From Tubulanus polymorphus (Eukaryota; Nemertea; Palaeonemertea; Tubulaniformes; Tubulanidae): 64,000 nucleotides of DNA. Positions within the stretch are counted from its first letter, which is position 1, and each line of letters starts with the position of its first letter. Location of the stretch: positions 18,618,650 to 18,682,649 of the forward strand of contig NC_134026.1 of NCBI RefSeq assembly GCF_964204645.1, written 5' to 3'. Shown here in pieces: positions 30,826 to 63,800 of this stretch. Below the pieces are notes generated by a model that saw only the letters and a program-made list of their open reading frames with translations, made no database searches and was not told where the DNA came from. The position numbers and the translations under genes were made by a program.

Positions 30826-31656
30826 AACAAGAAAAGTAATGGTTTCATATATCGATCAACAATGGCAAGCTGATTTAATTGACATGAAGAACTTAGAAGA
30901 ATACAACAAAGGATATTTCTGGATACTGAATGTTATAGACATATTCAGTAGATACGCATGGTCAATTCCAATCAAAAATAAAACTGGAATAGAAGTGACA
31001 AATGCTTTTAAATCTATATTTAAAGAAGCTATTCCAGATAAGATACAATTTGATGAAGGTAAAGAATTTTATAACAAACATTTTAAAAAACTATTATCTG
31101 ATAACGATGTAGAGTATTTTTCAACACATTCAGATGAAAAAGCATCTATTATAGAAAGATTTAATAAAACATTGAAAACTAGAATGTGGAAATATTTAAC
31201 TGCTAATGAAACATATAAATATATCGATGTGTTAGATGATTTAGTGAAAGGTTATAATAATTCTAAACATAGTTCTATAAATATGAAACCTATACAAGCT
31301 AGAAAAGAAGATAATTCAGAAATAGTTTGGAATAATTTATATGGGGCGTTTGTTACACATGATTTCGGCGAACCTAGATTTAAAATAGGACAACATGTAA
31401 GAATATCTAAATATAGAAAAACATTTTATAAAGGTTATACTCCAAATTTTACTGAAGAAATATTTAAAATTAAAAAGATAATATTAACCAAATCATTTGT
31501 TCATAAATTAGAAGATCTAAAAGATGAAGAAATATTAGGTTATTTCTATGAACAAGAATTATCACTTGTACCAAACCCAGATGAAATAGAATACAAAATA
31601 GAAAAAGTATTAAAAACAAAAACTCTTAAAGGAAAAAAGATTTATTTATATTTGAA
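30826..31656 (+). pseudogene. INT: Polinton-1 integrase, catalytic part
   Basis: A retroviral-type integrase core: WQADLIDM (first Asp), IQFDEGKEFYN (second Asp) and ASIIERFNKTLK (Glu) make the DDE triad. A C-terminal DNA-binding region follows (RISKYRKTFYKGYTPNFTEE). A deletion of about 85 bp between two AAAG words (after 31640) removes the chromodomain-like tail still present in copy 2 (63718-63800) and the start of the ATPase gene. The frame therefore runs into ATPase sequence and ends at 31672. Confidence 0.9.
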
Positions 31657-32242
31657 CCGCATAATATGTTAGTTACTGGAGTAACCAATTGTGGTAAAAC
31701 ACATTTCATATTAGATTTGTTAGAAACTATATATAAGAATCATTTTGATAATATAATATTATTCTGTGCTACTTATGAAATGAATGAAACATATAATAGA
31801 GATATAGTTAAGATGAAAAAGTTTATTATATTAAATCCTAAAACATTAAAAGAAAATTTAGATAATTGTATTAAAATAGCAATTGATACTTATAAAGGAT
31901 TAAATACATTATTTATCATAGATGATTGTGCAAATTTACATGATTCAAAAGTGAGAGAAAGTGAGTTATGTTATTTAGCTTTCCCTGGGAGACATTTTGG
32001 GATAACAACATGGGTTTTAAATCAAAAATATAATTCAATTGTTAAAGACTTTAGGGAGAATATAAGATTTCTAGTTTTATTTTATAAAAAAAGATAGAAA
32101 ATCTATGCAACAATCATTGGAAGAAAATCAAATTATACCTACTGAATTACATGATGAATATATGAATAAATTAAAGAATAATAAAGGTTCAAAATTATTA
32201 CTGAGGCTTCAATTTCCATATGAATATAAGTTTATAGAATAA
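31657..32242 (+). pseudogene. ATP: Packaging ATPase (FtsK/A32-like)
   Basis: Walker A is GVTNCGKTHF and Walker B is LFIIDDCANL, with the viral DNA-packaging ATPase spacing. A conserved GRHFGITTWVLNQKY follows (sensor region). The true start is lost in the deletion that also trims the integrase; 31666 is the first remaining ATG. An A-run near 32085-32092 shifts the frame, and the C-terminal text then goes on to a TAA at 32240-32242. In Polintons this enzyme is thought to pump DNA into capsids. It is the last gene of the rightward block. Confidence 0.88.
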
Positions 32243-32270: not shown

Positions 32271-32376
32271 AATTTATATATCTATGTACTAGACGTACTT
32301 AAGAATCCAAGATTCTTGCTAAGAAAGTAAGAATTCTTAGATTCTTACGTACGTCTAGTACATAGATATATAAATT
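32271..32376. terminator. Palindrome A at the convergence point
   Basis: Perfect 28-bp arms, 32271-32298 and 32349-32376, contain CTATGTACTAGACGTAC. The loop holds a second small foldback (AAGAATC/GATTCTT). It lies just beyond the ATPase stop and may act as a two-way transcription end signal. Confidence 0.75.
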
Positions 32377-32504
32377 ATTAAATGAATTATATAAAAATGA
32401 ATAATTATGTTTTCTCTTAATAAAAATAAAAATAGATTATATTATAACTATTTCTATACTTAGATTAATAATTTTATGTTTTTAATTTTTATTAAAACTA
32501 TTAT

Positions 32505-32602
32505 ATATATCTATGTACTAGACGTACGAGTAAGAAAGTAAGATTTCTTGGATTCTTGGATTCTTACCAAGATTCTTACGTACGTCTAGTACATAGATAT
32601 AT
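32505..32602. terminator. Palindrome B at the convergence point
   Basis: 23-bp arms, 32505-32527 and 32580-32602, identical in sequence to the arms of palindrome A. It lies 20 bp beyond the stop of the leftward zinc-finger gene. The arm sequence thus occurs four times in about 340 bp, in alternating direction. Confidence 0.75.
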
Positions 32603-32621
32603 AAATTAGTTTTATAATAAT

Positions 32622-33823
32622 TTATTCTAATTTTGTTTCTAATACATTTATAAAATCATCTCTGTTTATATCTAATTCATCTAAAGTATTAGGTATATTT
32701 ATTAATTTTAGTCGAGCCATCTTAACATAATAATTAGTAGGTATATTAGCTTTTTCTCTTAATTTTTCTAAGTATTCATCAAAATCATCATAATCAAAAT
32801 CAAAATGATTTCTGAAATTATTTATCAAATAACTTAAATCTATTTTTCTAAAATATAATAATTTATATATTTGTTCAGGATTATCTTCTGCATAAGCTAA
32901 TAATTTATCAAATAACAACTTATAGAATATATAATATTGGTTAGTTTTAGGATTAAAATATTTGATATATTTCTTTGGGTTATTTAACAATGGTATCATA
33001 CTCACCATTTTATAAACATTAACTAGATGTAATTTTGATTTATAATGAGTATTTTCATCAACAGGTTCAATTTTCTTATTACAATATTGACACGTTTTAT
33101 TTCTTTCTATTTCTTCTAATTTCTTTTCATATTCTTCTAACACCCTTTCATTTTCCATATGCGCTTGAGATTTTTTATGTTTAGAAAAATTACTTTTAGA
33201 AATATCTAAATCACAAATGTTACAATGTTTTTTAGAATCATCAATTATTTCATTATGTGTTATATCATTATCATTAGTTTCAATTGGGTTAACATTATTT
33301 ATTACATTATCTGTTATATTATCTATGGTATCATTTGTTTCAATTGTATTAACATTATCTTTTATATTACTAACTGATATATTATTATCATTATTATTCT
33401 TTTCTTTTTCTATATGTTTCTTTGATTTCTTATGTGATGCCCAATTTTTATATGATATATATTTCTTACATACATCACAATATTTTTGATTATAATCTTT
33501 TTTTGATTCAATATCATATGTAGAGGGTATATTATAAGATGTAGATGCTGTTACATCTTCTATTTTAGTTTCAATATTATTACTATCTTCTATTTTAGTT
33601 TCAATATTATCTTCTATTTTATATTCAATATCATTCTTATCTTCTATTTTAGGTTCAATATTATTTTCTTTTTTTGTTTCAATATTCTTATCTATTTTAC
33701 TTATTCTATATTTGAATTGATTAAAGTATTCTCCAAAATATTGTATTCATCATAAGGTAATATATAATATATATCTGATATCATTTCACTTGGAGTTTGT
33801 ATTTCATATATTCCACCTTCCAT
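32622..33823 (-). pseudogene. Zinc-finger protein with KIED repeats
   Basis: It starts at ATG 33823 and ends at 32622, about 400 codons, with a frameshift near 33735-33745. After a short N-terminus come several KIED(x)IE repeats (about 33570-33690), a first finger (CDVCKKYISYKNWASH), an Asn/Thr-rich spacer, a second finger (CNICDLDISKSNFSKH), a third pair (CQYCNKKI with H-x5-H), and a helical C-terminus. Fingers ending HxxxKSxxH resemble those in the element's DNA polymerase. It is probably a nucleic-acid-binding protein and is last in the leftward block. I know no named family. Confidence 0.65.
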
Positions 33824-33911
33824 TTAATATAAGATTTTTTATTAAAGTTAAAATTTTAATATTTCATAACACTTAATACATAACACTATTTAATTGAGAA
33901 TTTACAATATT

Positions 33912-35120
33912 TTATTGCGCGTCAGATATAATATGAATCTGCATTTTAAAATTTAAGCTTCCTTTTTTCTTTTTCATGAATAATTGTATTCCATCTTTAG
34001 TGTTCTGTAATTTTTTCCCAGAACCATGTAATAAGTTATCCTCTGATGTTCTAAGATCTAACCATAATGCATATTTATTACCGGTATAATAATCAATTTG
34101 ATTAATATTACAATTTTCAGATGATTTTACTTTTTCATTCATAAAATGTTTTCTAATTTCTGGCCATTGATCTATCATTCTCATTCCTTGACAAAATATT
34201 TTATTTGCTATTCCTTCGATAGTTATATCTACTTTTGATATTTCAGGATTATAATAATTATCAACTTTTATTGCACCATTAGAATATGTTGCAATGGTAA
34301 AAAATATTAATATACCTTTAATAGATCTTCTTAGGAAGTTAATATTCTCATTAATAATTTCATCATTTGCATTAATAGTTACAGTTTTAAATTTATCAAC
34401 ATAATCATATAATAATGAAAATCCTTGATTGTATTGAGTTTGAATTATACTTGAAATATTTTCATCAGTTACTGTATCATATTCTAAACATATATTCGAT
34501 AATTTATAACCCATATCTTTAACAACGCTAGATAATACAATTTCATTTACAAGAGCAAATGTTATTTCTAATATAACGTCTTCTTGAATTGCGTATTTAT
34601 ATAAAGGCGCATTATTATTTATCAATTCAAAGTCTAATGGAATTTTATATTTGCTTCCATAAATCTTTTTTATCAAATTATCTGCGGTACGAGTTACTAT
34701 TGCGTCATTAGCTCCTGATCTTAATTTATTTTGGTTTTCTGATTGGATTCCTTGAAATATCATATTATTTCTATTTTCTTTAGTTAACCATAAATCTTTA
34801 TAATGCATAAATAAATTATAATCATCTAATGAGAAAACTGTTTCTGGACCGATCTTTATAGTTAATTTTTTAATCAAATATCTTCCAACATTATCAACAA
34901 CATAATTATTATTATTACCGGTTACTTTTATATCAGCTGATAAATAAATACTATTTGGAACATAAAAAGTATTTTGTGTTAATCGAGGAATTCTAACATA
35001 TAAAGTTTCATCGGGATTAATATTTGAAGGGTTATGAGTAATTATATGATGTTATCTTTCTGTTTTAATAGCATTAGATATTCTAGAAATCTTAGAAGGA
35101 CTTATATAACTCCCACTCAT
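33912..35120 (-). pseudogene. MCP: Putative major capsid protein
   Basis: About 402 codons from ATG 35120. The pattern SGANDAIVTR...YKIPLDFELINN fits the region leading into the jelly-roll of Polinton/adintovirus capsid proteins. beta-rich segments follow, ending in a short basic tail. A TAA at 35052-35054, 23 codons in, is the only break; everything after it is open. It is preceded by the late-type start junction. Assignment rests on sequence style and position, so fold prediction should confirm it. Confidence 0.58.
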
Positions 35121-35170
35121 TTATTTAACAAAAAAATTAATTATTTATTTTTGATTATGTTTATTTTTTA

Positions 35171-36068
35171 TTATTTTTTCTTGATATTTTTTGATATCAT
35201 ATTCACTAACCCAAAAATAATTGTACTTACAACTGTAATTAAAAATAAAATAATATGTTCAGCAGCAAAGTTAAGAATGTTTCCTGCAGATTTCAATATA
35301 AAACCAACAATTGATGCAATAATTCCTGGTAAAGCTGCAGCAGATTTTTTAGATAGTTCCCATAAATATTTTGCTAATTTCTTTAAACCATCTTTAACTT
35401 TATCTTGTATAGAATTATTACCTGGGGGTTTATCCGGTTTATTGGGAGTAGGAGTAGATTTCAGTGAATTTGATATAGCTAAACCTATTGTTGTGAATAC
35501 CATAGTTACAGCTGTTAGAATTGAAAGAATTGTTATTCCTTCAAACTTAAATAATAATTTTATTCTATCTTTCAATGATATGTCAGAATTTGGTTTTAGT
35601 ATTAACTCTTTAACAACAACTTTTAATCTATTAATACAATAATCATATGATTTTAATGATAATTTCATTTTTTCTTTCTGAAATTCTATGTTATATTCTA
35701 AATCATCAATTTCTTTTTCTAAATATGCATTTCTTTTTTTAAATTCAATTTCTTCAATAATTTTAAATTCTCTATCTAATTTTAATTGTTCTAATTCTTT
35801 TCTGGTGTCAAATAATTTATTTTCTAAAGGTTTAATTTTATGATATCTAATTTTTTTCGCACGCAATTTTATCGGCTTCATTTCGTATACTTAATATTTC
35901 TCTAATCGTTTTTTCAGAAAACATACTTAAAGCTTCTATTTCTTGATCTGTTGCATCAAGTAATCCATTTAGTAAAAGTTTTTCAGTTTGAACTCCTCTT
36001 GAATTAGGTTTTCCAGAAGGTGTTTCTGTTTCTAAATTATTTTGGATTGTTTCAAATAATTCATTCAT
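35171..36068 (-). pseudogene. Coiled-coil, triple-membrane-segment protein
   Basis: Two overlapping frames, 35847-36068 (73 aa) and 35171-35881 (236 aa), probably one gene split by an A-run (near 35850). The first has a short acidic start. The second has a long charged coiled coil (about residues 20-80), a hydrophobic segment (TILSILTAVTMVFTTIGLAI), a Pro-rich hinge (TPTPNKPDKPPGN), and two more hydrophobic segments at the C-terminus (ALPGIIASIVGFILK, IILFLITVVSTIIFGL). This layout recurs in invertebrate Polintons. A virion-membrane or entry-type role is possible but not shown. Confidence 0.62.
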
Positions 36069-36097
36069 TCTTTGTTATATACTCTTTTATTTTTATT

Positions 36098-36610
36098 TTA
36101 TTTTTGTGTTACATTTTCTATTTCATTATTAATACTTATTTTTTTAATTCTATCTGGTTCTAATTTTTCCAAAGTTGATTCTGCTAATATTTTGTTTTGA
36201 TATTTATAAGAGATATTAATATAATAATCTTCTTTCAAATTATAATCTTTATTCAAATGATAATAATATTCGCCATTTAAATATTTTAAATCTTGTACTA
36301 AAAGTCTAGCACCTCTATCATTTATATTATATCCAGAATCTTTAAATATCGGTTTCAATTTATAAATATTTTCATTATGATCTAGATTTTTCTTTAATAA
36401 ATCTGGATTTAAATTTTCAGAATTTATACTTGATCTAGTTCCTCTATCAAACTCATCTGTTGATGGGGCTTTGGAACCACTATCTGCTAGATTAGAATTA
36501 TATGCTGATTCATCATCATTATCAATATTAGTTTCATTAGAATCAGGTTGTGGTTCATCACTTATACTGGGGGTGCCACCAAAAGTATCCATTGGAATAT
36601 CTTCTTCCAT
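36098..36610 (-). CDS. Acidic low-complexity protein
   Basis: 170 residues. The first half is acidic and Ser/Asn-rich, likely disordered, and the second half is more ordered (GARLLVQDLKYLNGEYYYHL). It is open and preceded by the late-type junction, with the TAA of the upstream gene as part of that motif. No family recognised. Confidence 0.6.
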   Translation of the reverse strand: MEEDIPMDTFGGTPSISDEPQPDSNETNIDNDDESAYNSNLADSGSKAPSTDEFDRGTRSSINSENLNPDLLKKNLDHNENIYKLKPIFKDSGYNINDRGARLLVQDLKYLNGEYYYHLNKDYNLKEDYYINISYKYQNKILAESTLEKLEPDRIKKISINNEIENVTQK

Positions 36611-36626
36611 TTATATAATAAAAAAA

Positions 36627-37211
36627 TTAAAATTTAAAATATAATATTCCTCCTATAACAATTCCTATACAAGTTAAAGCTAATTTAGCATTTTCATGGG
36701 ATTTATTATCATTATCAGTTTTAATTATTTCATGTTGAATATTATCAGTTTTAATATTTTCTGATGTATTGTAATCTTTTATTTTATCATTATTTAATTT
36801 AATATTCTTAGTTTTAGTTTCTGTTGATTGAATATGTTTTTTATTTTTTTCACCTTCCATTAATTTTGGAGCATTGATAATCTTTTTATTTATATCATTT
36901 AATCCAAATGAATTATTTATTGTTGCAGTTTTAATTAAATTATTATAACCAATTATATTTCCCATCTTACTATCCCATGATACTAAATCATTAGAAATAT
37001 TTAATAGATTAGGGCCTATACAATAATTAAGTCTTACATGAGATTTATCTAAATAATTTTGATATCTTACAATGTTTTCTGGAATCGATCTATTTTTATC
37101 ATTATAAATGGAATCTTCAAATAATACTTTGAATTGTTTCTGCGCATCAAATGAAGTACTTTCATTTCCAACTATTGGCGATCTTGTTTCAACTGGGCAC
37201 CTAAAATACAT
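36627..37211 (-). CDS. Polinton protein with C-terminal membrane anchor
   Basis: 194 residues, ordered N-terminal part (VRYQNYLDKSHVRLNYCIG), a Lys/Asn-rich spacer, and a single C-terminal transmembrane helix (LALTCIGIVIGGILYF). It is one of the few open genes. The start at 37211 lacks the usual ATAAATG context, so a different start is possible. Function unknown. Confidence 0.6.
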   Translation of the reverse strand: MYFRCPVETRSPIVGNESTSFDAQKQFKVLFEDSIYNDKNRSIPENIVRYQNYLDKSHVRLNYCIGPNLLNISNDLVSWDSKMGNIIGYNNLIKTATINNSFGLNDINKKIINAPKLMEGEKNKKHIQSTETKTKNIKLNNDKIKDYNTSENIKTDNIQHEIIKTDNDNKSHENAKLALTCIGIVIGGILYFKF

Positions 37212-37236
37212 ATCAAATAAGTTCTAATAGATTGAT

Positions 37237-37932
37237 TTATTCTTTGTATACCTGATTTTTAAAACCTTCACCATTTTCTAAAATGAAATTAACCCAACCA
37301 TTATTATTATCAATTTTATAATTATGATATGCTCCAATTCTATGCATATAATCAATTCTTTTTATTTTATACTCTTCACCAATACCTTGCAATTTACCAT
37401 GCGCTCTAAAATCGGAATTAATATTTATATTAAATTCATTACATATTTTATAAAATTTAGATAGATTAATGTTATTATCCAATTCTTTAAAATATTTAGA
37501 TCCGGGTAAAGGACATTCTAATTCATTTAATATTATTCTGATTTGAAAATATGTGTGAAATCTAAATATTGTGTGAATTAATTTTAAATCAGAATACTTC
37601 AAATTTTTATCTAAGTTATTTAAATTATCATTCCAACTTATACCACAACCAGTTGTTGCACAATAAACAGCAAAATTTAATTGATTCTGCCAATATTTCA
37701 TATTAGATTTTACTTTATATATATGATATTCATCTCGAGTAAAAGTAACTTCATATGTATTAAATATATTTTCCATTTTAGAAATAAAAAACTGTGATTC
37801 AGTAACATAAATTTCTAAATTAGTTAATGAATTTAAAACTAAATTTTTATATGTAATATTTTTTTAAAAATCTATTGTAGGAATATTATATTTAATTGAT
37901 TTATTATATTGGAAAGCTTTTGGAAACCCCAT
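37237..37932 (-). pseudogene. Conserved Polinton protein, one stop
   Basis: About 231 codons from ATG 37932, preceded by TATATAAATG. A TAA at 37864-37866 interrupts it 22 codons in. The main part has YEVTFTRDEYHIYK, NFAVYCATTGCGISWND and ECPLPGS. This Trp/Cys-rich pattern recurs next to capsid genes in invertebrate Polintons, so a structural role is likely, but I cannot name it. Confidence 0.62.
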
Positions 37933-37948
37933 TTATATAACTAAAAAA

Positions 37949-38380
37949 TTAATAATTTATTAATTCTTTTAATAATTTATCTTGTTCTTCAACTGTTATA
38001 TGGCCATTTAAACTTATTATATAATCTTGTGTATTCTTTAATTTATTAATTTCTTTTATATTAGTTTTAATTTTTTCTTTATTACTTTTTATATTTAATT
38101 TTGAACTTATACCGGTTAAAACACTTGAACTTAATCCTAACACACCAATTGATATAGCTCAAGGTGTTAATGGACTGAATATTGCTAGAAATGTTATTAC
38201 AGAACTAATTGTAACTGAACCACTAATAATAAAATATATAATTTTAGATTTTAAATATTTTTTCTGTTTTATCTTCAAGTCATTTTCAAATTCTAATATT
38301 TGTTTTTCTAAATATATTTTTAATTTAGTTTTATTTATATCATGAGGAATAATATCAATATTATCAACTTAATCATCCAT
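37949..38380 (-). pseudogene. Small two-helix membrane protein, two stops
   Basis: 144 codons from ATG 38380. TAA is found at codon 4 and a TGA about codon 74. It has a charged N-terminal coiled coil, two hydrophobic segments (IIYFIISGSVTISSVITFLA and ISIGVLGLSSSVLTG), then a charged C-terminus. Preceded by the late-type junction. No family recognised. Confidence 0.55.
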
Positions 38381-38399
38381 TTATTTAGCAAAGAAATTA

Positions 38400-38820
38400 C
38401 TAATTAGTAAATTTATATGCTACAAATATAACAATAACTGTTCCACCTAAAATCCAAATTATTTCATATTTCTGTTGTTCTTTACTTGGAGTATAATAAT
38501 CTGATATTGTAGGTTTATGTAGATGTAATTTTTCTTTATTGGTTACCGCGTTATATAAACTCATTGCATCATCAACTGATTGGAAATCTCTATGTGATCA
38601 TCTGATCATATAATTCCTTGTTAATATAATCCATATAATTTTGTCTCTTTTCTCTATATTCTTCTGCAGTTTTATTGTATTTCTCTAATGCTAAGTTATG
38701 TCTTTTTTGTTCTGTTACTGAACCATTTTTATCAATATGTTTAGATAAATATCCACCACCAGTAAATGCTAAAGCGTTAACAATTGCCGATCCTATAATA
38801 GTTATAATTGCAGAAGGCAT
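38400..38820 (-). pseudogene. Small membrane protein, frameshifted
   Basis: It begins with a Gly-rich hydrophobic segment (AIITIIGSAIVNALAFTGGG), then a charged coiled coil (HNLALEKYNKTAEEYREKRQ). After a frame change near 38590 it continues to a Pro-containing loop (PTISDYYTPSKEQQKYE) and a C-terminal transmembrane helix (WILGGTVIVIFVAYKF), with the stop at 38400. This N- and C-terminal anchor layout recurs in Polintons of corals and molluscs. Confidence 0.6.
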
Positions 38821-38844
38821 TTATTTAATGAAAAAATTACGCAT

Positions 38845-39065
38845 TTATATGGGAGGAATATATTTTTGTTTTTACAAATAATCAATGGTTAAATTAGATA
38901 AAGTAACTGCTAACGTTAATTTTAAAATATCATTTATATCAAATCTATCAACATTAACACTTCCCATTTTAAATACTTTTTTAATACCATTGAATAACCA
39001 ACAGTTCCAACTGATAGTAATGCTCCATTATATAATCCAGTTATTATCCACTTATTATCACTCAT
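38845..39065 (-). pseudogene. Very short membrane protein, broken
   Basis: About 72 codons from ATG 39065. A hydrophobic N-terminal helix (WIITGLYNGALLSVGTVGYS), one frameshift near 38960-38975, then DINDILKLTLAVTLSNLTIDYL, a TAA, and QKYIPP before the final stop. It is too short for many gene callers. Similar small proteins lie in the same place in other Polintons. Its start lies 4 bp beyond the stop of the gene before it. Confidence 0.5.
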
Positions 39066-39069
39066 TTAT

Positions 39070-39423
39070 TTATAAAAAAAAATTACTATCTTCAAAATAT
39101 TTAGTTAACTTATTTATGATTAATTCAACATTTATTTCATTACTAGTTTCCTTTGTATATATTTCAATTATTATTTTTTTAAGATCATCGATGATAAAAT
39201 CTTCATCTAATTCATAAAATCTTTAAGATTCTCTAATTAAATTAGTAATCTTTTCTACATTTAAAGTTTCTTTATCTATTGTTGTTTCATACTCAAATGT
39301 TATTTCATTAGAAAATGCAATATTTTTAATATGTATAATTACATCAGTAATGTTAAATTTCATTTCTTTCTCACGTTTAAAATCAAACCCAAAACATATA
39401 CTCGGTCCAACAGTTATATTCAT
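39070..39423 (-). pseudogene. Acidic small protein, one stop
   Basis: 117 codons from ATG 39423, with a TAA at codon 67 (39220-39222). The N-terminal half is beta-like (FDFKREKEMKFNITDVIIHI) and the C-terminal half acidic and helical. Start preceded by TATATAAATG. No family recognised. Confidence 0.52.
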
Positions 39424-39439
39424 TTATATAGTGAAAAAA

Positions 39440-40197
39440 TTACTCTTTACATCTTATAACTAATTCATAAATTACAGGAAAGTTATTCAAATCAATTAAA
39501 TATCCATTATGATTTCTTATTTCTAATTTAAAATTATTAAATTGAGGAATACAAGGTTTAAAATCACATTCAGCTAAATTATAATTTATTTGCGTTCCAA
39601 ATTGTTTAACATTTTTTAATGATAAAATATTTAATATACTAAAATTACATGTTGTATCTTTAGTTGCTTCAAATGTTTTTGTAGGATCAATTAAATTGCA
39701 ATAAATATAAATGTATAAAAGGTATTATATTTGAAATGCCTTCTACGTTTACTGTAACAACATCTGGTGCAATTCCTAGCAATTTAGCTAATGGTTTTTT
39801 TTCCTATAAATGCATGTTGACTTTCATCAAATACCTTTATTTTAATTTTATTTGTGCTATCACGTTTTATAAATCTAATTAAAAATTTATCATCTTTTCT
39901 AATTTTCAACCGTGCTCTTCGATTAATTTCTTGAGATAATGTTTCTAAATTATATAATCCTGGTTTTAAAATTAGATGAAACCATTTATTTACATTTCTA
40001 ATATGAATTAAAAAAGTATTATGTTCAATAGTTTTATTCGATATATTGTAAAAAGAATTACATAAACTTATATTAACTAATTTTAAATCTACGCAATTTT
40101 TATATTCTCTATCTAATTGAACTAATAAATTATGTGATTTATAATTTGTAAGTTTTGTTGAATCAACAAATATTCTGTATTCTTTTAATTCCGCCAT
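39440..40197 (-). pseudogene. Putative minor capsid (penton-like) protein
   Basis: About 250 codons from ATG 40197, with two frameshifts (near 39790 and 39705). The pattern YRIFVDSTKLTNYKSHN, LKLVNISLCNSFYNIS, then after the shifts YCNLIDPTKTF and FPVIYELVIRCK, resembles single-jelly-roll minor capsid proteins of this group, where a Y(I/C)xCxLIDP phrase recurs. The call is by sequence style only. Structure prediction would settle it. Confidence 0.45.
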
Positions 40198-40214
40198 TTA
40201 TTTTACATATTTTC

Positions 40215-40568
40215 TTATTCGAAATCTATTTCATGGTGCCCCTTTTCATTCTTACCTTTGTATACGAAATAGAAATCACCAGAACATTATTCTTCTAAAT
40301 TTTCACTTGATAATCTATGAAATCTATCTGGTAAATATGTTCTGAATTTATATGTATTTCCTTTTAATCCTTCATATTCTAAGTGTATAACTAATTTATC
40401 TCCATATTTGTTAGTAACTGTAACAATATCTGTAATTAGATATTTCTTATGGATTGTTAATTCTTATAACTTCTTAAATTTATAATCTACTGATTTGACA
40501 TTTGAAGTATCTTTTATTCTATCTAGAAATAATTTGTTGTTCTCACTGTTTGCTTGTTTACTCTCCAT
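40215..40568 (-). pseudogene. Small conserved protein, two stops
   Basis: 118 codons from ATG 40568, preceded by TTATTAAAATGGA as for the polymerase. TAA at 40464-40466 and 40287-40289. The core is KKYLITDIVTVTNKYGDKLV, then TYLPDRFH and DFYFVYKGK. Small proteins with this YPV/YG/LPxRF pattern recur in invertebrate mobile elements. It may bind nucleic acid (beta-rich), but no function is established here. Grouped with the polymerase by start context. Confidence 0.55.
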
Positions 40569-40597
40569 TTTAATAACATATTTTTATTAAAATTTGA

Positions 40598-43500
40598 TTA
40601 ACACGTTAGAATTCTTTTCATAATCTCATGCTCTTTTGTTTCTTCTCTTTTGAACTTTAGATATTCATCTAAATTGCAACCATATGCAACTGTATGAATT
40701 CCGTCATCTAAAATATATCTTTTATCATCAAATGGATTCAAACTAACCTTTTCAATTTCTTCAATAAACATTTCATGATCTTCTGATCTTAAACATTTCA
40801 TCTTATGTTTTCTAACTTCTTCATTGAATATACAATTGATGTAATCTTTGAAATGAATATTCTTTTCTACCACACTTTTGGTTATTCCATTCAATTTCTT
40901 TGATTCATGAGTTTTAGTTTTATATGAATACATTTTGGATCTAATACCAATGAATTCAATCATTTCTTCACCACCTAATTCATCTTTGAATTTACCGGGT
41001 CGCTTTTTATTATCATTGCTAAACAATTAATGATCTTTAGGATAATTACTGAAATCAAAATGATGTTTTAATGTTTTTAAATCATCAGTTATGTTATTAG
41101 TTTTTATCTTTAATATGTAACTGTCAGTATCAAAATATAAGATTTCTATATGTTTTTCTCCAAAATGAGGTTGTAATACATTATAATAGAATTCATACAT
41201 TAATAACTTTGATAATTCTAAAACTGAAGCACCAACATAAATTGGTTTATTAAATTCCATAGATGTTCTTCTCATTTTAACTGCAGCTAAATTTTCATCA
41301 AATATTCTGTTACCTATAAATTTAGGATATGTTTGTAAATGCCTTATCCTTTTGCCATTACTAACTAACTCAATATCATTTCTATTTCTAATATTTTCAC
41401 AAGTCTTACCATAGAATGCATTATTCATTAACTTGAAGAAATCTTTCTCAAAATCAGTTTTAGCTTCAGTTCTCTGTTTGGTGTTAAAATCTATATATTT
41501 TTCTAACCACTTAGATTGACTAAATGAAATATATCTATGTACTTTTTTTTTAGGATCATTCCTTGTTTTAGATATAACTTTAACATTCTATAATGTACTA
41601 CATAATTATATTAACTTCCTGAGTTACCATTAACTTTTCTGTATGAATATGATTTTCGGGTTTAATTCTTTTTTGATAATTTGATAATTCTTCATGTGTT
41701 ACAGTTTTATGTTCGGGGCAGTATGCTAGATTTCTAGATTTAAATTCAATATGTTCAGGATATTCTAAATCTACAACAAAGAAGTAACCAGTATCTGAAT
41801 CATCTGCAATATCTAGGATTCTTTTCTTCCAATCAAATTTATCATTATTTTCATGTTGTAAAACTTCACTTATTTCAAATACTCCATAAGGTTGTGGTTC
41901 CATCATTGCCCAACGATACAAATTATTTGCATCTATATATAATAACTTATATCCAGGGTTATCATTTACATTGAAATATCTATCACCTAATACACCTGAA
42001 ACTCCTCCTCTTATAGATTTTTCAAATAATAATAATTGATCTATATTTGTTAACAAGTCCATTTTTATATCTGTAAATTTTAATCCACAATCCCATGTTA
42101 AACCTGGACTAGAATAACAATGACATGGATCAATATTAAAATATTTTAGGTTTACATCTCTAAACCTTTCAAATATATCCGATAATAATAATACATCTGA
42201 TTTTAAATATAAATCTACCAATTGTCCATGATTTTTCATTTTGAAATGATTCCAAATATTCAATGTTCTATTATATACTTCATCTTTAACATATTCATTT
42301 TTTAATTCATCATAGAATTGTTCTTTCAATAATTCAGTTATATTAAAATCATTATGATTTTTATAGAAAGAATATGGAATTGCGCCTTTATATCTCATTA
42401 ATTGAAAATCATCATTATTTGGATAGTGTTGTTTTAATATTTTTAATTCATCATCAACTAATGATTTTGATAAGTTATCTAATGAACTATTTAAAAATCT
42501 ATATGAATCTATAAATCTTAGACACCCAAATTGGAATGATATATAATTCTCAGATGTTCTAGCTAACATTTTAAATTTATAAGTTGGTATTTTATCTTTT
42601 GATCTATTTGAATTTAATCTTTCTATTTCATTATTAATTTCTTCTATTTTATGACATAACTGTTTGATAAATAAATGTGCATAAATTCTGATAGATTATG
42701 AAATATAACTGGTACAAAGTTAATTTTCTTAGCTTGTAAATTGCAATTCTCATGCGCAGCGCCTCTAAACTTTCCGTTCAAATGATCATGGTCTCTTACT
42801 TTTTTATCTTTATAATTAAATATCTTTTCACAATAATAACATTTACCTGCAAACACAAATTCTTCTTTATATTCTTCTGTCATTATAATTTCTATATTTG
42901 TATTCAATAATTTGCTAAATCTTATTTCATGTTCAATTAATAAGTCACAAAAATGATTGATAACATTTTCATTTCTATAATGATAATATTCACTTTCAAT
43001 TAGTTCTGGATAATCAGATTTTATATATAACCCGAAAGCAGCAGCTGATTGATGAATCTTTTTAATTGTATTTGTTATTGGTGGTTCTTCTGAAAAATCA
43101 TTTTCATTAGAATTTAATTTCTTTCTTTTATAATATATTTCTTTTCTATCTTGATCAGTTAATTCTTTATTTAATGATTCAAAATCTCCATATATTACAA
43201 ATGGTACTTTATTTTTGTAATCATATTTTTTGAATTCTAATATTTTATCTTTTTCATTTGGTAAAACTAATTTACAATAATCATGATTTTCACATAATTG
43301 TTTATGATTTAATAATGTACTTTCATTTCTGAATCTATGTAAACATTTTCTACAAAGATATATTTTATGGTGATCATTTTCTGATTTCAAAAATAAATCG
43401 ATTTGTTTAATCCACATATAATGATTTTCATAATATAGTATATCTATAACATCATTTGAATCATAATCTTTTGATAGGTATAAAGGTTCTAATGTATAAT

Positions 43501-44629
43501 GTTTTATATTGTTGCCTTTTGTTTTTGGTAATTTGATTAAATCAAATATATTTATTCTTAAATTATTATCTCTTTCTATTTTTGGGATATTTTTAATTGT
43601 AACAGGATACTTATCTATCTTATAATTATTTTCAAATGGTTTATAATGAGTTAATCTACAAATATTATCAGTTGCAGGATGTAAGCAACTAATTATTGCC
43701 CATAGAAAACATTTATCATCAAAATTTTGTACATTTATAACAGCATTAGTTTTAAATGGTAATTTGATATAACTCGATGCTTCAATATCTGGTTCTTTAT
43801 AATATGATACATTATTTTCATCAATTGGTTTTGATTTAGTTAACTTATTATATTTTGTGTTATAAACATGTAAAGTCATAAATATTATTTCATCAAATAT
43901 TAAACCAGATCCTTCAAAATATTTCTCTTCTATTTTAGTTTTTACTTCATTATAACATTTATCTAATTTATCATCTATATGTTGTTTAGATATAATATGT
44001 TGTGAATGAGAATTTATATTATATATTGGTTTATCTTCAGATTTTATAAACTTTACTTTAGAAGATATACTAATTTTAGGGTATTCAACATCAGTTATTA
44101 TTTTTATAATATTTTTCATATTTTCTACATGTTTTTTATTTTCTTCTAATGTTTTTCCTTTATGAAATTTGAACTCAATAGCTGCTGGACCAATATCACT
44201 TTTAAATGCTTCGGTTATCTCTATATCTTTTTTATTATCTAATGAATTAATATAATTTCTTACATCTTCCATGTATGGTCTTTTATTGTTTAATTTATTT
44301 CTTATTCTTTTAATTGTCTTATGTTTCTTATCATTGTCATTATCAAAATAATTTTCACCTAAAATATCATTATTCATATTTCTAATATGACTTTTAGATT
44401 TTAAATGTTCATTACAATATCTTTTATCACTGAATGATTGATTACATGTATCACATTTATATATTTCTTTTTCATTCTTTAATTCATCTAATTTAGTTTC
44501 TAATATATCATCTTCATATTCTAATTTCAATATATTCTCTAAATGTGTTTTAGTTTTATTGTGTCTTGCTTTTTGGGATTTATCTAGATTGATTTTACAT
44601 GTTGAACAGTAGTACTTATTTGCTTCCAT
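40598..44629 (-). pseudogene. POLB: Protein-primed family B DNA polymerase
   Basis: About 1,340 codons. Start chosen at ATG 44629 (TAGTATTAAAATGGAAGC context), though the frame is open to 44677. Two C2H2-like fingers (YCSTCKINLDKSQKARH, YKCDTCNQSFSDKRYCNEH) open it, and a third lies near 43310. Exo I is YGDFESLN (about 43180). Pol A is LLYIDANNLYRWAM (about 41930), Pol B is NNAFYGKTCEN (about 41415) and Pol C is YFDTDSYILK (about 41130), in the right order. Breaks: frameshift near 42685, shift near 41600, TAA at 41027-41029. It would copy the element from its ends. Confidence 0.93.
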
Positions 44630-44691
44630 TTTAATACTAAATTTTTTTTTTAAATTGATTTGACACATTTTATTCATTTATATTTTATTCA

Positions 44692-45208
44692 TTTATATGT
44701 TATTCATATATATATATATATGAATTATTTCAATCACACTTACTAACACTTTTAATGTTTAAAAATCTAACTCATACAAATATAAATATTGAAATAATGT
44801 TTAAAATATATCTATATATCTATTTATAAGTGAGCTCGTTAATTACTCGTTACTTTTTTACTAACGCTTTTATATTGAATAATCTATCAATTTATATGTT
44901 ATTCATATATATTTAATCATGTATATAAATATTTTAAGAGTAATAGGGGTAATGGGCTTTCAGGTTAAAGGTTGAAAGGGTGAGTGAGTAAAAAATGAAA
45001 AAATATGAAAATAATAATAATTTCTATTTGGATTAGGAGTGAAACTCATAAAAAATGAAAAATAAATTCGAGGGTGCGAGAATTATTTTTCATTTTTTAT
45101 GAGTTTCACTCCTAATTCAAATAGAAATTATTGTTATTTTCATATTTTTCATTTTTTATTAGCTCGACCTTTCGACCTTCGATCTGAAAGCCCATTACCC
45201 TTATTACT
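44692..45208. repeat. Polinton-1 right terminal inverted repeat
   Basis: Reverse complement of 20627-21050. The outer 270 bp (44939-45208) is a large foldback: AGTAATAGGGGTAATGGGCT near 44939 pairs with the terminus at 45208. This outer hairpin is about 90 bp longer than on the left because of an internal duplication of the ATGAGTTTCACTC block. Confidence 0.9.
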
Positions 45209-60409: not shown

Positions 60410-60845
60410 AGTAATAGGGGTAAATGGCTTTCAGGCCAAAGGTCGAAGGGTCGAGCTCGTAAAAAAAATGAAAATAACAATAATTTACAGTTGAATTAGT
60501 CGCGCGCACTCCTAATTCAACTGTAAATTATTGTTATTTTCATTTTTTACTCACTCGCCCCCTCAACCTTTAACCTGAAAGGCCATTACCCCTATTACTC
60601 TTAAAATATTCATATACATGGATAAAATATTTATGAATAACATATAAATTGATAGATTATTCAATATAAAAGTGTGAGTAAAGTGTGAGCTCTTATAGAA
60701 TAGATATATAGATATATTTTAAACATTATTTCAATATTTATATTTGTATGAGTTAGATTTTTAAACATTAAAAGTGTTTGTAAAGTGTGATTGAAATAAT
60801 TCATATTTAAATCATTGAACTTCTAAAATCAATTTAGTAAAACAA
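60410..60845. repeat. Polinton-2 left terminal repeat
   Basis: The outer 190 bp (60410-60599) is a foldback, as in copy 1: the first 25 bp pair with 60575-60599. The loop differs in sequence from copy 1 (TTTACAGTTGAATTAG instead of the GAGTTTCACTC block), although the foldback form is kept. The inner part (60600-60845) matches copy 1 closely but lacks the ATTACTCGT block. Confidence 0.88.
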
Positions 60846-60857
60846 TTTGATATTAAA

Positions 60858-61511: not shown

Positions 61512-61734
61512 AGAATAATAGGATTTAAATAAGATATGATAAAAAACAATAACTTCAACTAGCTAGTGAATTCTCTTATATTTTTAATATTTTCTTTTAC
61601 AATTCTTTTCAAAAGAGAATACTTTATATCACAAATAAAAAATACTAAAAAACAATAACTAATACTAAAATTCTTTACCTTTAACTAACAAGTATTAAAA
61701 TATTATATTTTTTTCGCTTTTTTCTCCTATATAA

Positions 61735-62344
61735 ATGTCAAAGAAATCTAATAAGAATAGTATTAATATTGAAAAAAACATTAGATGATTTGGGTATAAG
61801 TGATAATAAAGATACAGTTGTAACTAATTGTGCTCAAGTTAATTGTAATATAGATTATGAATACTATTTATATTGTAAGCATCATCTAGAACTATTGATT
61901 GCTGGAGGGAAATCTAAGGATTTCTTGGGAAAAATAATAACTTTTCAAGAATTAGATTCTATGAAACCAGATAAAGTAATAAAATATTTTAAGATTTATG
62001 AAGAGTCAAGATTAGCCCGAATAAATGATTCTATTTCGGATGGTATTGTCAAATGTTACTCTAAGTTATGTAACCGGTTAATACCAATTGATGATGAAAA
62101 TAAATTATATAGTGATTTGAAAAATGACTATTTAGTTATGACTGAATTACAAAAATGGGTTGGTTACGCTTCATTTCAATTAGGATCGGTTATGACATTT
62201 ATTTCTACTGGTGTCATAACATTTTCGAATATCAAACCTATGGAATATAAATCAGGTAAGAACGAAACAGATGGCGCCGCACGACAACCAAACGGCGAAA
62301 CAGAAAATGAATCAGAACAAAAATTAACTAAAATAAATGAGTGA
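61735..62344 (+). pseudogene. Conserved Polinton protein, copy 2, frameshift
   Basis: Start ATG 61735 (CTATATAAATG). An A7 run at about 61775-61781, against six As in copy 1, shifts the frame after 13 codons. The rest (61769-62344) is open and keeps the helical core and the SVMTFISTGVITF segment. Overlaps the next gene by 8 bp. Confidence 0.68.
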
Positions 62345-62711: not shown

Positions 62712-63800
62712 ATGAAAAAAGAACAATATTTAAGAGATTTATATTATAACCCAGAAAGTGAAGTATCATATTCTAACGTTTCAGAATTATGGGATAAAAT
62801 TAAATCTGATAATGAAAATATAAAATATAGTGAATTAAAATCATGGTTACAAAACCAACCAACATATCAAATCCATAAGAAAATGGATAAAACTTATTTA
62901 ACAAGAAAAGTTATGGTTTCATATATCGATCAACAATGGCAAGCAGATTTAATTGATATGAAGAACTTAGAGGAATACAACAAAGGATATTTCTGGATAT
63001 TAAATGTTATAGATATATTCAGTAGATACGCATGGTCAATTCCAATCAAAAATTAAACTGGAATAGAAGTAACAAATGCTTTTAAATCAATATTTAAAGA
63101 AGCTATTCCAGATAAGATACAATTTGATGAAGGTAAGGATTTTTATAATAAACATTTTTAAAAACTATTATCTGATAACGATGTAGATTATTTTTCAACA
63201 CACTCAGATAAAAAAGCATCTATTATAGAAAGATTTAATAAAACATTGAAAATTAAAATGTGGAAATATTTTACTGCTAATGAAACATATAAATATATCG
63301 ATGAGTCTATAAATATGTTAGATGATTTAGTGAAAGGTTATAATAATTCTAAACATAGTTCTATAAATATGAAACCTATACAAGCTAGAAAAGAAGATAA
63401 TTCAGAAATAGTTTGGAATAATTTATATGGTGCGTTTGTTACATATGATTTTGGTGAACCTAAATTAAAAATAGGACAACACGTTAGAATATCTAAATAT
63501 AGAAAAACATTTTATAAAGGTTATACCCCTAATTTTACTGAAGAAATATTCAAGATTAAAAAGATAATATTAACTAAACCTTTTGTTTATAAACTAGAAG
63601 ATCTAAAAGATGAAGAAATATTAGGTTATTTCTATGAACAAGAATTATCACTTGCCCCAAATCCAGATGAAACAGAATACAAAATAGAAAAAGTATTGAA
63701 AACAAAAACTCTTAAAGGAAAAAAGTATTCTTTGGTGAAATATAAAGGGTATGATGATAAATTTAATGAATGGATTTATCTAGTAAAATTAAAAGAATAA
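62712..63800 (+). pseudogene. INT: Polinton integrase, copy 2
   Basis: Starts at ATG 62712. An N-terminal helical domain, then the DDE core (WQADLIDM, IQFDEGKDFYN, ASIIERFNKTLK), then a basic DNA-binding region, and a C-terminal chromodomain-like tail (YSLVKYKGYDDKFNEWIYL, 63724-63780). TAA at 63054-63056 and a second TAA at about 63159-63161 break it. The tail probably binds chromatin marks and guides insertion, as known for chromodomain integrases. Confidence 0.9.

Follow-up and report, generated by a model that had tools for sequence, protein, structure and literature searches.

The 64,000-nucleotide stretch of the Tubulanus polymorphus genome analysed here (the window; C2:18618650-18682649 in a genome of 267.8 Mb) contains a damaged Polinton, copy 1, most of which falls within the region under study, and a second copy that begins near position 60537. 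Conservation among copies and a rule taken from the literature support two conserved classes of start signal in this family, one of which has the anatomy of a poxvirus late promoter. We propose, with a probability of roughly 0.5, that the blocks of this class are Nucleocytoviricota-type (poxvirus/asfarvirus) late promoters and that a co-infecting large DNA virus supplies the RNA polymerase that reads them; the Polinton would then be a virophage-like satellite. All DNA compared belongs to one capsid family in one genome. The initial annotation of the window had seen a likeness to the early/late split of large cytoplasmic DNA viruses: the two conserved classes and the poxvirus-late character of one of them bear this out in part, while the timing and the point of transcription start are what we infer.

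Two classes of start block

Vaccinia late promoters are described as a core some 20 bp long that includes T residues, followed by 5-7 bp and TAAAT(G/A) at the initiation site (PMC5294985). The same anatomy is found at 7/7 minus-strand gene starts of the capsid cluster, with spacers of 5-7 bp (Table 1). These are the seven genes for which the initial annotation had reported a T-tract, two to four bases and a motif; every one indeed carries a T-run, a short spacer and TAAATG, and its wording needs amending at two of them. The T-tract at 38380 is present yet interrupted (TTTCTTT), and at 39065 a single base separates the T-run from TAAATAAATG. An eighth late-type site, beyond these seven, lies on the plus strand at 61735 with a spacer of 8 bp. 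The distance of 16 bp from stop to start at 36610, 37932 and 39423 was correctly given, and the equivalent gaps in the sister copy L122 likewise measure 16 bp.

Four open reading frames (ORFs) in the cluster, at 37776, 37211, 36067 and 35881, lack a late-type block. In L122, a single open frame of 442 aa covers the equivalents of 37932, 37776 and 37211, and another of 337 aa covers those of 36610, 36067 and the first part of 35881; each starts at the block-bearing start. The four ORFs therefore look like pieces of decayed genes, and on this assignment the block stands at every one of the seven gene starts from 39423 to 35120. L122 itself has a late-type block at six of the seven equivalents; that of 39065 was not recovered there, and sites with the window's 39065 spacing are present in other copies among the matches listed. 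TAAATG without a T-run occurs at 40197, 33823, 62337 and 63801, and neither feature at 62712.

A strict rule taken from the poxvirus papers, and thus independent of the window (T5, 5-7 bp, TAAAT[G/A]), has 11 matches in the 64 kb: it recovers six of the seven starts (39065 twice), misses 38380 owing to its C, and finds four sites elsewhere. In 12.6 kb of the element (32300-44900, both strands) there are 9 matches, whereas 300 dinucleotide shuffles give 1.84 on average and never more than 7; the 46.3 kb of non-element DNA in the window hold 1. Across the whole genome, a longer late pattern has 4007 exact matches versus 5 for the reversed pattern, and 94 of 100 such sites, among the matches listed, have a same-strand neighbour within 5 kb.

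The conservation of the block was assessed at the capsid start, using 60 loci (L054-L113; L079, with no recognisable start, was dropped) that comprise 54 distinct sequences, 36 of them with an open capsid gene of 415 aa. In these 36 copies, nucleotide diversity (pi) is 0.015 (95% 0.005-0.027) over the 33 bp before the ATG, which is about 9 times below the fourfold sites of the capsid gene (0.129; 0.092-0.170) and 19 times below the 26 columns directly upstream of the block (0.287; 0.204-0.371), where the alignment is less certain. The value at codon positions 1 and 2 is 0.029, and adding the boundary column -34 raises the value for the block to 0.034 (0.008-0.082). T5, 5-7 bp and TAAATG are kept in 36/36 copies. 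The initial annotation had named a lack of conservation beyond general AT-richness in other copies as the outcome that would speak against it; across the 36 copies, the capsid start shows the opposite.

The TAAAT box need not overlap the start codon. At 219 genome sites (0 for the reversed pattern) it lies three bases off, in the form T-run, 6 bp, TAAATA, then ATG, and this is the form found at the 40197 homologue in sister copies. Because the box can sit apart from the start codon, a role in transcription is favoured over one in translation. Most of the TAAATA-form sites listed also have ATG-TTA-TAA shortly before the start codon; transcripts initiated at TAAAT would avoid it.

The second class, which the initial annotation had recognised at 44629, 40568 and 60858, is present and longer than it had stated: at 3/3 starts, AATCAA stands exactly 24 nt before TATTAAAATG. 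Eight other occurrences of TATTAAAATG in the window and in loci L054-L125 (overlapping loci repeat some sites) have no AATCAA, and the combined pattern has 395 matches in the whole genome versus 0 for its reverse. The blocks of the polymerase and of 60858 sit just inside the terminal repeats, in a stretch similar at both ends, and the 40568 block lies elsewhere. Among 75 of the 100 early-type sites listed, 12 inward-facing pairs (two sharing one partner) are 15.6-19.3 kb apart, versus 2 outward-facing pairs at distances within that range, as would follow from one inward-pointing block per element end. The HNH label that the 60858 gene had received finds no backing in Pfam matches of its two pieces.

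One gene can have different start classes in different copies. The 40568 homologue in L123 carries a block of the T-run type, and 40197 is without a T-run in the window and with one in sister copies. We also observed, at the integrase and ATPase of the sister type (L066, L075-L078, L123:5119, L123:6247), a third kind of start in which ATATATAAATG follows an A-rich stretch and no T-run is present.

A VLTF3-like protein in sister copies

Some sister copies encode a protein of 432-441 aa that combines C2H2-like fingers and a CPQC...CxEC ribbon with a C-terminal region matching the second half of the VLTF3 model. A whole-genome search with the Pox_VLTF3 profile gave 63 matches, all above the cut-off and with a top score of 30 bits; the 14 control genomes gave none, and in a later search with this family one control genome, that of Bacillus subtilis, matched below the cut-off. 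With PF04947, all five C-terminal pieces examined score 27.5-29.7 bits against a cut-off of 25, over model positions 83-165 only, and a reversed C-terminal piece used as control has no match. PHROGs, PDB and NCBIfam return no VLTF3 for this protein. In the genome, 97 of 1178 candidate copies were scored, at 87-100% identity.

The gene is flanked by the polymerase gene, with which it converges, and by the 40197 homologue, from which it diverges. A divergent block of the 40197 type lies 37-134 bp from it in at least 30 of 37 copies on C1-C4 (93 of 100 listed blocks used). Among the matches listed, a VLTF3-like gene is near two of nine capsid loci of the integrase-next type, and near none of 44 loci of the window's type or of 7 untyped ones.

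The element and its gene content

The element has the hallmarks of the Polinton/Maverick group: a family B polymerase (PF03175, 41 bits, on one piece; protein priming is predicted), a retrovirus-like integrase (PF00665), an A32-like packaging ATPase (PF04665), a double jelly-roll capsid according to the predicted structure of the relative P0001, terminal inverted repeats, seen by comparing the right end of copy 1 with the left end of copy 2, and a total length in the 15-20 kb range, to judge by the 12 inward-facing block pairs at distances of 15.6-19.3 kb. An adenovirus-type protease is not among the Pfam matches of the scanned element proteins, no search having been aimed at it. Likewise, the Pfam scan of element proteins, which covered small ORFs only partly and was not a dedicated search, showed no RNA polymerase; an element of about 17 kb would leave little room for such a gene.

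The gene at 35120 is the capsid gene, with 188 relatives in the protein database; in the genome search, 132 of 1664 candidate copies were scored, which puts the element at over a hundred copies. The predicted structure of P0001 (73% identical to the capsid; mean predicted local distance difference test score 83.7) is a double jelly-roll, whose top PDB matches are the capsids of an iridovirus and of Paramecium bursaria chlorella virus 1 (template-modelling score about 0.6), ahead of mavirus and Sputnik. The model is nearer to Nucleocytoviricota capsids than to the mavirus, Sputnik or adintovirus capsid. A search of the same genome for a more divergent capsid family, with the queries P0045 and P0007, gave one family at 50-60% identity for both.

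Several observations concern other parts of the element. In sister copies, the polymerase gene is split near its YFDTDS motif by an intein-like insert (L122:6922-9403, L120:1824-3231; by eye from translations). The zinc-finger gene adjoining the capsid gene (32622-33823 in the window; L086, L093, L100, L101, L106) has a common N-terminal part, but its C-terminal half exists in at least three versions, as though the module underwent exchange or diversification. Between the ATPase and the zinc-finger gene, at 32280-32605, there are two inverted-repeat stretches with TATCTATGTACTAGACGTAC, which resemble small palindromic insertions. Among the matches listed, element sites on the large contigs C1-C12 start several Mb inward (the first late-pattern match listed on C1 is at 11.68 Mb), as if chromosome ends held few insertions. 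The window also contains a DUF1759 domain (Pfam), of the kind known from BEL/Pao retrotransposons of animals, which points to a likely animal host.

Outside the genome, viral contigs yielded no relative of the capsid fragment, the capsid alignment A1, a polymerase piece or an integrase. The late pattern occurs in 52 viral contigs, with one match each and no arrays; we read these matches, which were not inspected individually, as chance, and PF04947 is absent from the 7 of the 52 that were searched for it. A scan of genome contigs with A1 returned a single distant capsid, encoded at L001:115-592 on a contig filed as a metagenome-assembled genome of a Diapherotrites archaeon, which is probably contamination from a eukaryote. 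The phage collection yielded no relative of A1.

Table 1. Start blocks and other features of the window (positions within the window)
Feature	Position	Strand	Remarks
Late-type block before capsid gene, 33 bp	35121..35153	-	T-run, 6 bp, TAAATG; kept in 36/36 open copies
Late-type block	36611..36632	-	T-run, 6 bp, TAAATG
Late-type block	37933..37954	-	T-run, 7 bp, TAAATG
Late-type block, T-run broken by one C	38381..38402	-	6 bp, TAAATG
Late-type block	38821..38842	-	T-run, 7 bp, TAAATG
Late-type block	39066..39088	-	T-run, 5 bp, TAAATG
Late-type block	39424..39445	-	T-run, 7 bp, TAAATG
Eighth late-type block, copy 2	61701..61734	+	T-run, 8 bp, TAAATG; upstream ORF about 220 bp away
Early-type block before DNA polymerase gene	44630..44660	-	AATCAA 24 nt before TATTAAAATG
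Early-type block before gene 40568	40569..40599	-	AATCAA 24 nt before TATTAAAATG
Early-type block before first gene inside copy 2 left terminal repeat	60827..60857	+	AATCAA 24 nt before TATTAAAATG
Integrase and A32-like ATPase of copy 1, left part missing	30839..32240	+	PF00665, PF04665
Major capsid gene, stop-broken in window copy	33912..35120	-	Protein relatives and predicted fold of relative P0001
Family B DNA polymerase gene, broken	40598..44629	-	PF03175 on piece 41598-42569
Terminal repeat, copy 1 right end	44718..45001	-	90% identical to 60537-60806, inverse orientation
Terminal repeat, copy 2 left end	60537..60806	+	Matches 44718-45001 inversely

Which polymerase could read the late-type block

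According to the mechanism we propose, the genes with TATTAAAATG (the polymerase and the end genes) would be expressed first, and the capsid cluster later, from TAAAT starts. Initiation inside TAAAT would produce a nearly leaderless message, possibly with a slipped 5' poly(A) leader like those reported for vaccinia late messages (PMC12722222). The VLTF3-like protein would direct this late class, and a helper virus, a large co-infecting DNA virus, would supply the RNA polymerase; the helper is proposed because no RNA polymerase is seen in the element. The initial annotation had suggested that, if the split is real, the element had its own transcription signals. As regards the signals, the conserved start blocks agree with this. 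Own signals are better supported than an own transcription system, because the VLTF3-like gene is present in sister copies and absent from the window DNA, and no RNA polymerase is among the scanned element proteins.

Several points weigh against late promoters read by a helper virus. No such helper is known or was found; the T-runs, of 5-9 T, are shorter than the vaccinia core of roughly 20 bp; a T-run is missing at several starts, that of gene 40197 in the window among them; and the DNA compared is limited to one capsid family of one genome. The late factor adds points of its own: the window DNA has no match to the VLTF3 C-terminal domain, a scan of the full-length VLTF3-like protein does not list PF04947, the match being confined to the C-terminal half of the model, and searches of the protein database found no relative at E 0.001, nor any at E 10 when alignment A2 was used. 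Constraint on the gene is weak in five open copies (pi 0.027 at positions 1 and 2 versus 0.034 at fourfold sites), and no canonical VLTF3 is among the candidates scored in the genome (best 30 bits).

The main rival, for which the mriyaviruses may serve as a model, holds that a helper virus is unnecessary: host RNA polymerase II would read the late promoters in the nucleus, with the VLTF3-like factor of sister copies redirecting it. We regard it as doubtful, the likeliest of the alternatives nonetheless. The VLTF3-like gene resides in the element itself, integration and an integrase imply a nuclear phase, and mriyaviruses, for which the authors of the description favour nuclear replication, keep VLTF3 without an RNA polymerase (PMC11253617). 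A polymerase II message from TAAAT, however, would be nearly leaderless, and the DNA of the window shows no VLTF3-like gene; among the matches listed, the counts are 0/44 for window-type and 2/9 for integrase-next capsid loci.

The block might also not be a promoter at all, the T-run terminating the preceding gene, or the T-run and AT-rich leader helping ribosomes to restart on a polycistronic message. Poly(T) terminators are described in African swine fever virus (ASFV; PMC7163114), and at three window starts with 16 bp from stop to start the T-run directly follows the stop. Yet the block is kept at 35120, with 50 bp to the end of the upstream ORF, and at 61735, with about 220 bp, as well as in L122 where the neighbouring gene is divergent, and at the 219 sites mentioned above TAAAT is separated from ATG with T-run and spacer kept. 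On these grounds both readings were set aside as improbable. Even less credit is due to chance, that is, AT-rich sequence that is similar only through recent common descent of the copies: although the element is AT-rich, a single capsid family was sampled and shuffles reach 7 rule matches against the 9 observed, the block is common to seven different genes, its variation at the capsid start is far below that of fourfold sites and spacer in the same copies, and the reversed-pattern controls give 5 vs 4007, 0 vs 395 and 0 vs 219.

Among known systems, the block resembles vaccinia late promoters in its T-containing core, its 5-7 bp and a TAAAT(G/A) that overlaps the start codon (PMC5294985). It differs from those of vaccinia and of ASFV, whose late promoters have a TATA initiator (PMC7163114), in several ways: the element that carries it is integrated, about 17 kb long and equipped with a Polinton polymerase and integrase, with no RNA polymerase seen; the T-runs are shorter; and the initiation site is a predicted one. 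A parallel in lifestyle would be mavirus and its relatives, including endogenous virophages, and the pacmanvirus transpoviron – small elements that use late promoters of their giant-virus helper, with motifs common to both (PMC8547959, PMC11788076). Unlike these, the Polinton has a likely animal host, a poxvirus-like motif instead of TCTA, no known helper, and a VLTF3-like protein in some copies. The adintovirus-like elements of Amoebidium, Polinton-related and about 30 kb long, have VLTF3, capsid genes and a family B polymerase, so that VLTF3 in Polinton-related elements is already known; they are larger, have a Dam methyltransferase and a protist host, and the available part of that report does not mention promoters (PMC11244446). 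Mriyaviruses share VLTF3 without RNA polymerase genes, and differ in their 35-45 kb and in lacking a DNA polymerase and a Polinton integrase; in the available text of that paper, from 2024, VLTF2 and VLTF3 are stated to be undetected outside Nucleocytoviricota (PMC11253617). TAAAN initiators, together with 5' poly(A) leaders, are already known outside that phylum from the cytoplasmic linear elements of yeast (pGKL), which in contrast encode their own RNA polymerase (PMC6211774).

Our literature search, judged largely by titles and abstract openings, found no description of late promoters in animal Polintons, and no earlier account of an animal-type Polinton whose capsid cluster has a poxvirus-like late block at each of its gene starts. 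Tentatively, and with less confidence than in the helper-read promoters, we suggest an animal Polinton with the late code of the giant-virus phylum (promoter and late factor) and without an RNA polymerase, which might be either the virophage of an undiscovered large DNA virus of animals or a living relic of the passage that led from Polintons to giant viruses. The start-block code bears on how animal Polintons are transcribed and on whether they behave as viruses. A promoter code common to the capsid cluster indicates the kind of polymerase to seek and makes the idea of a helper testable; furthermore, a VLTF3-like gene adjoining the polymerase gene of a Polinton would matter for the proposal that giant viruses arose from Polintons. 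If the proposal is true, the element is a virus-dependent virus of animals.

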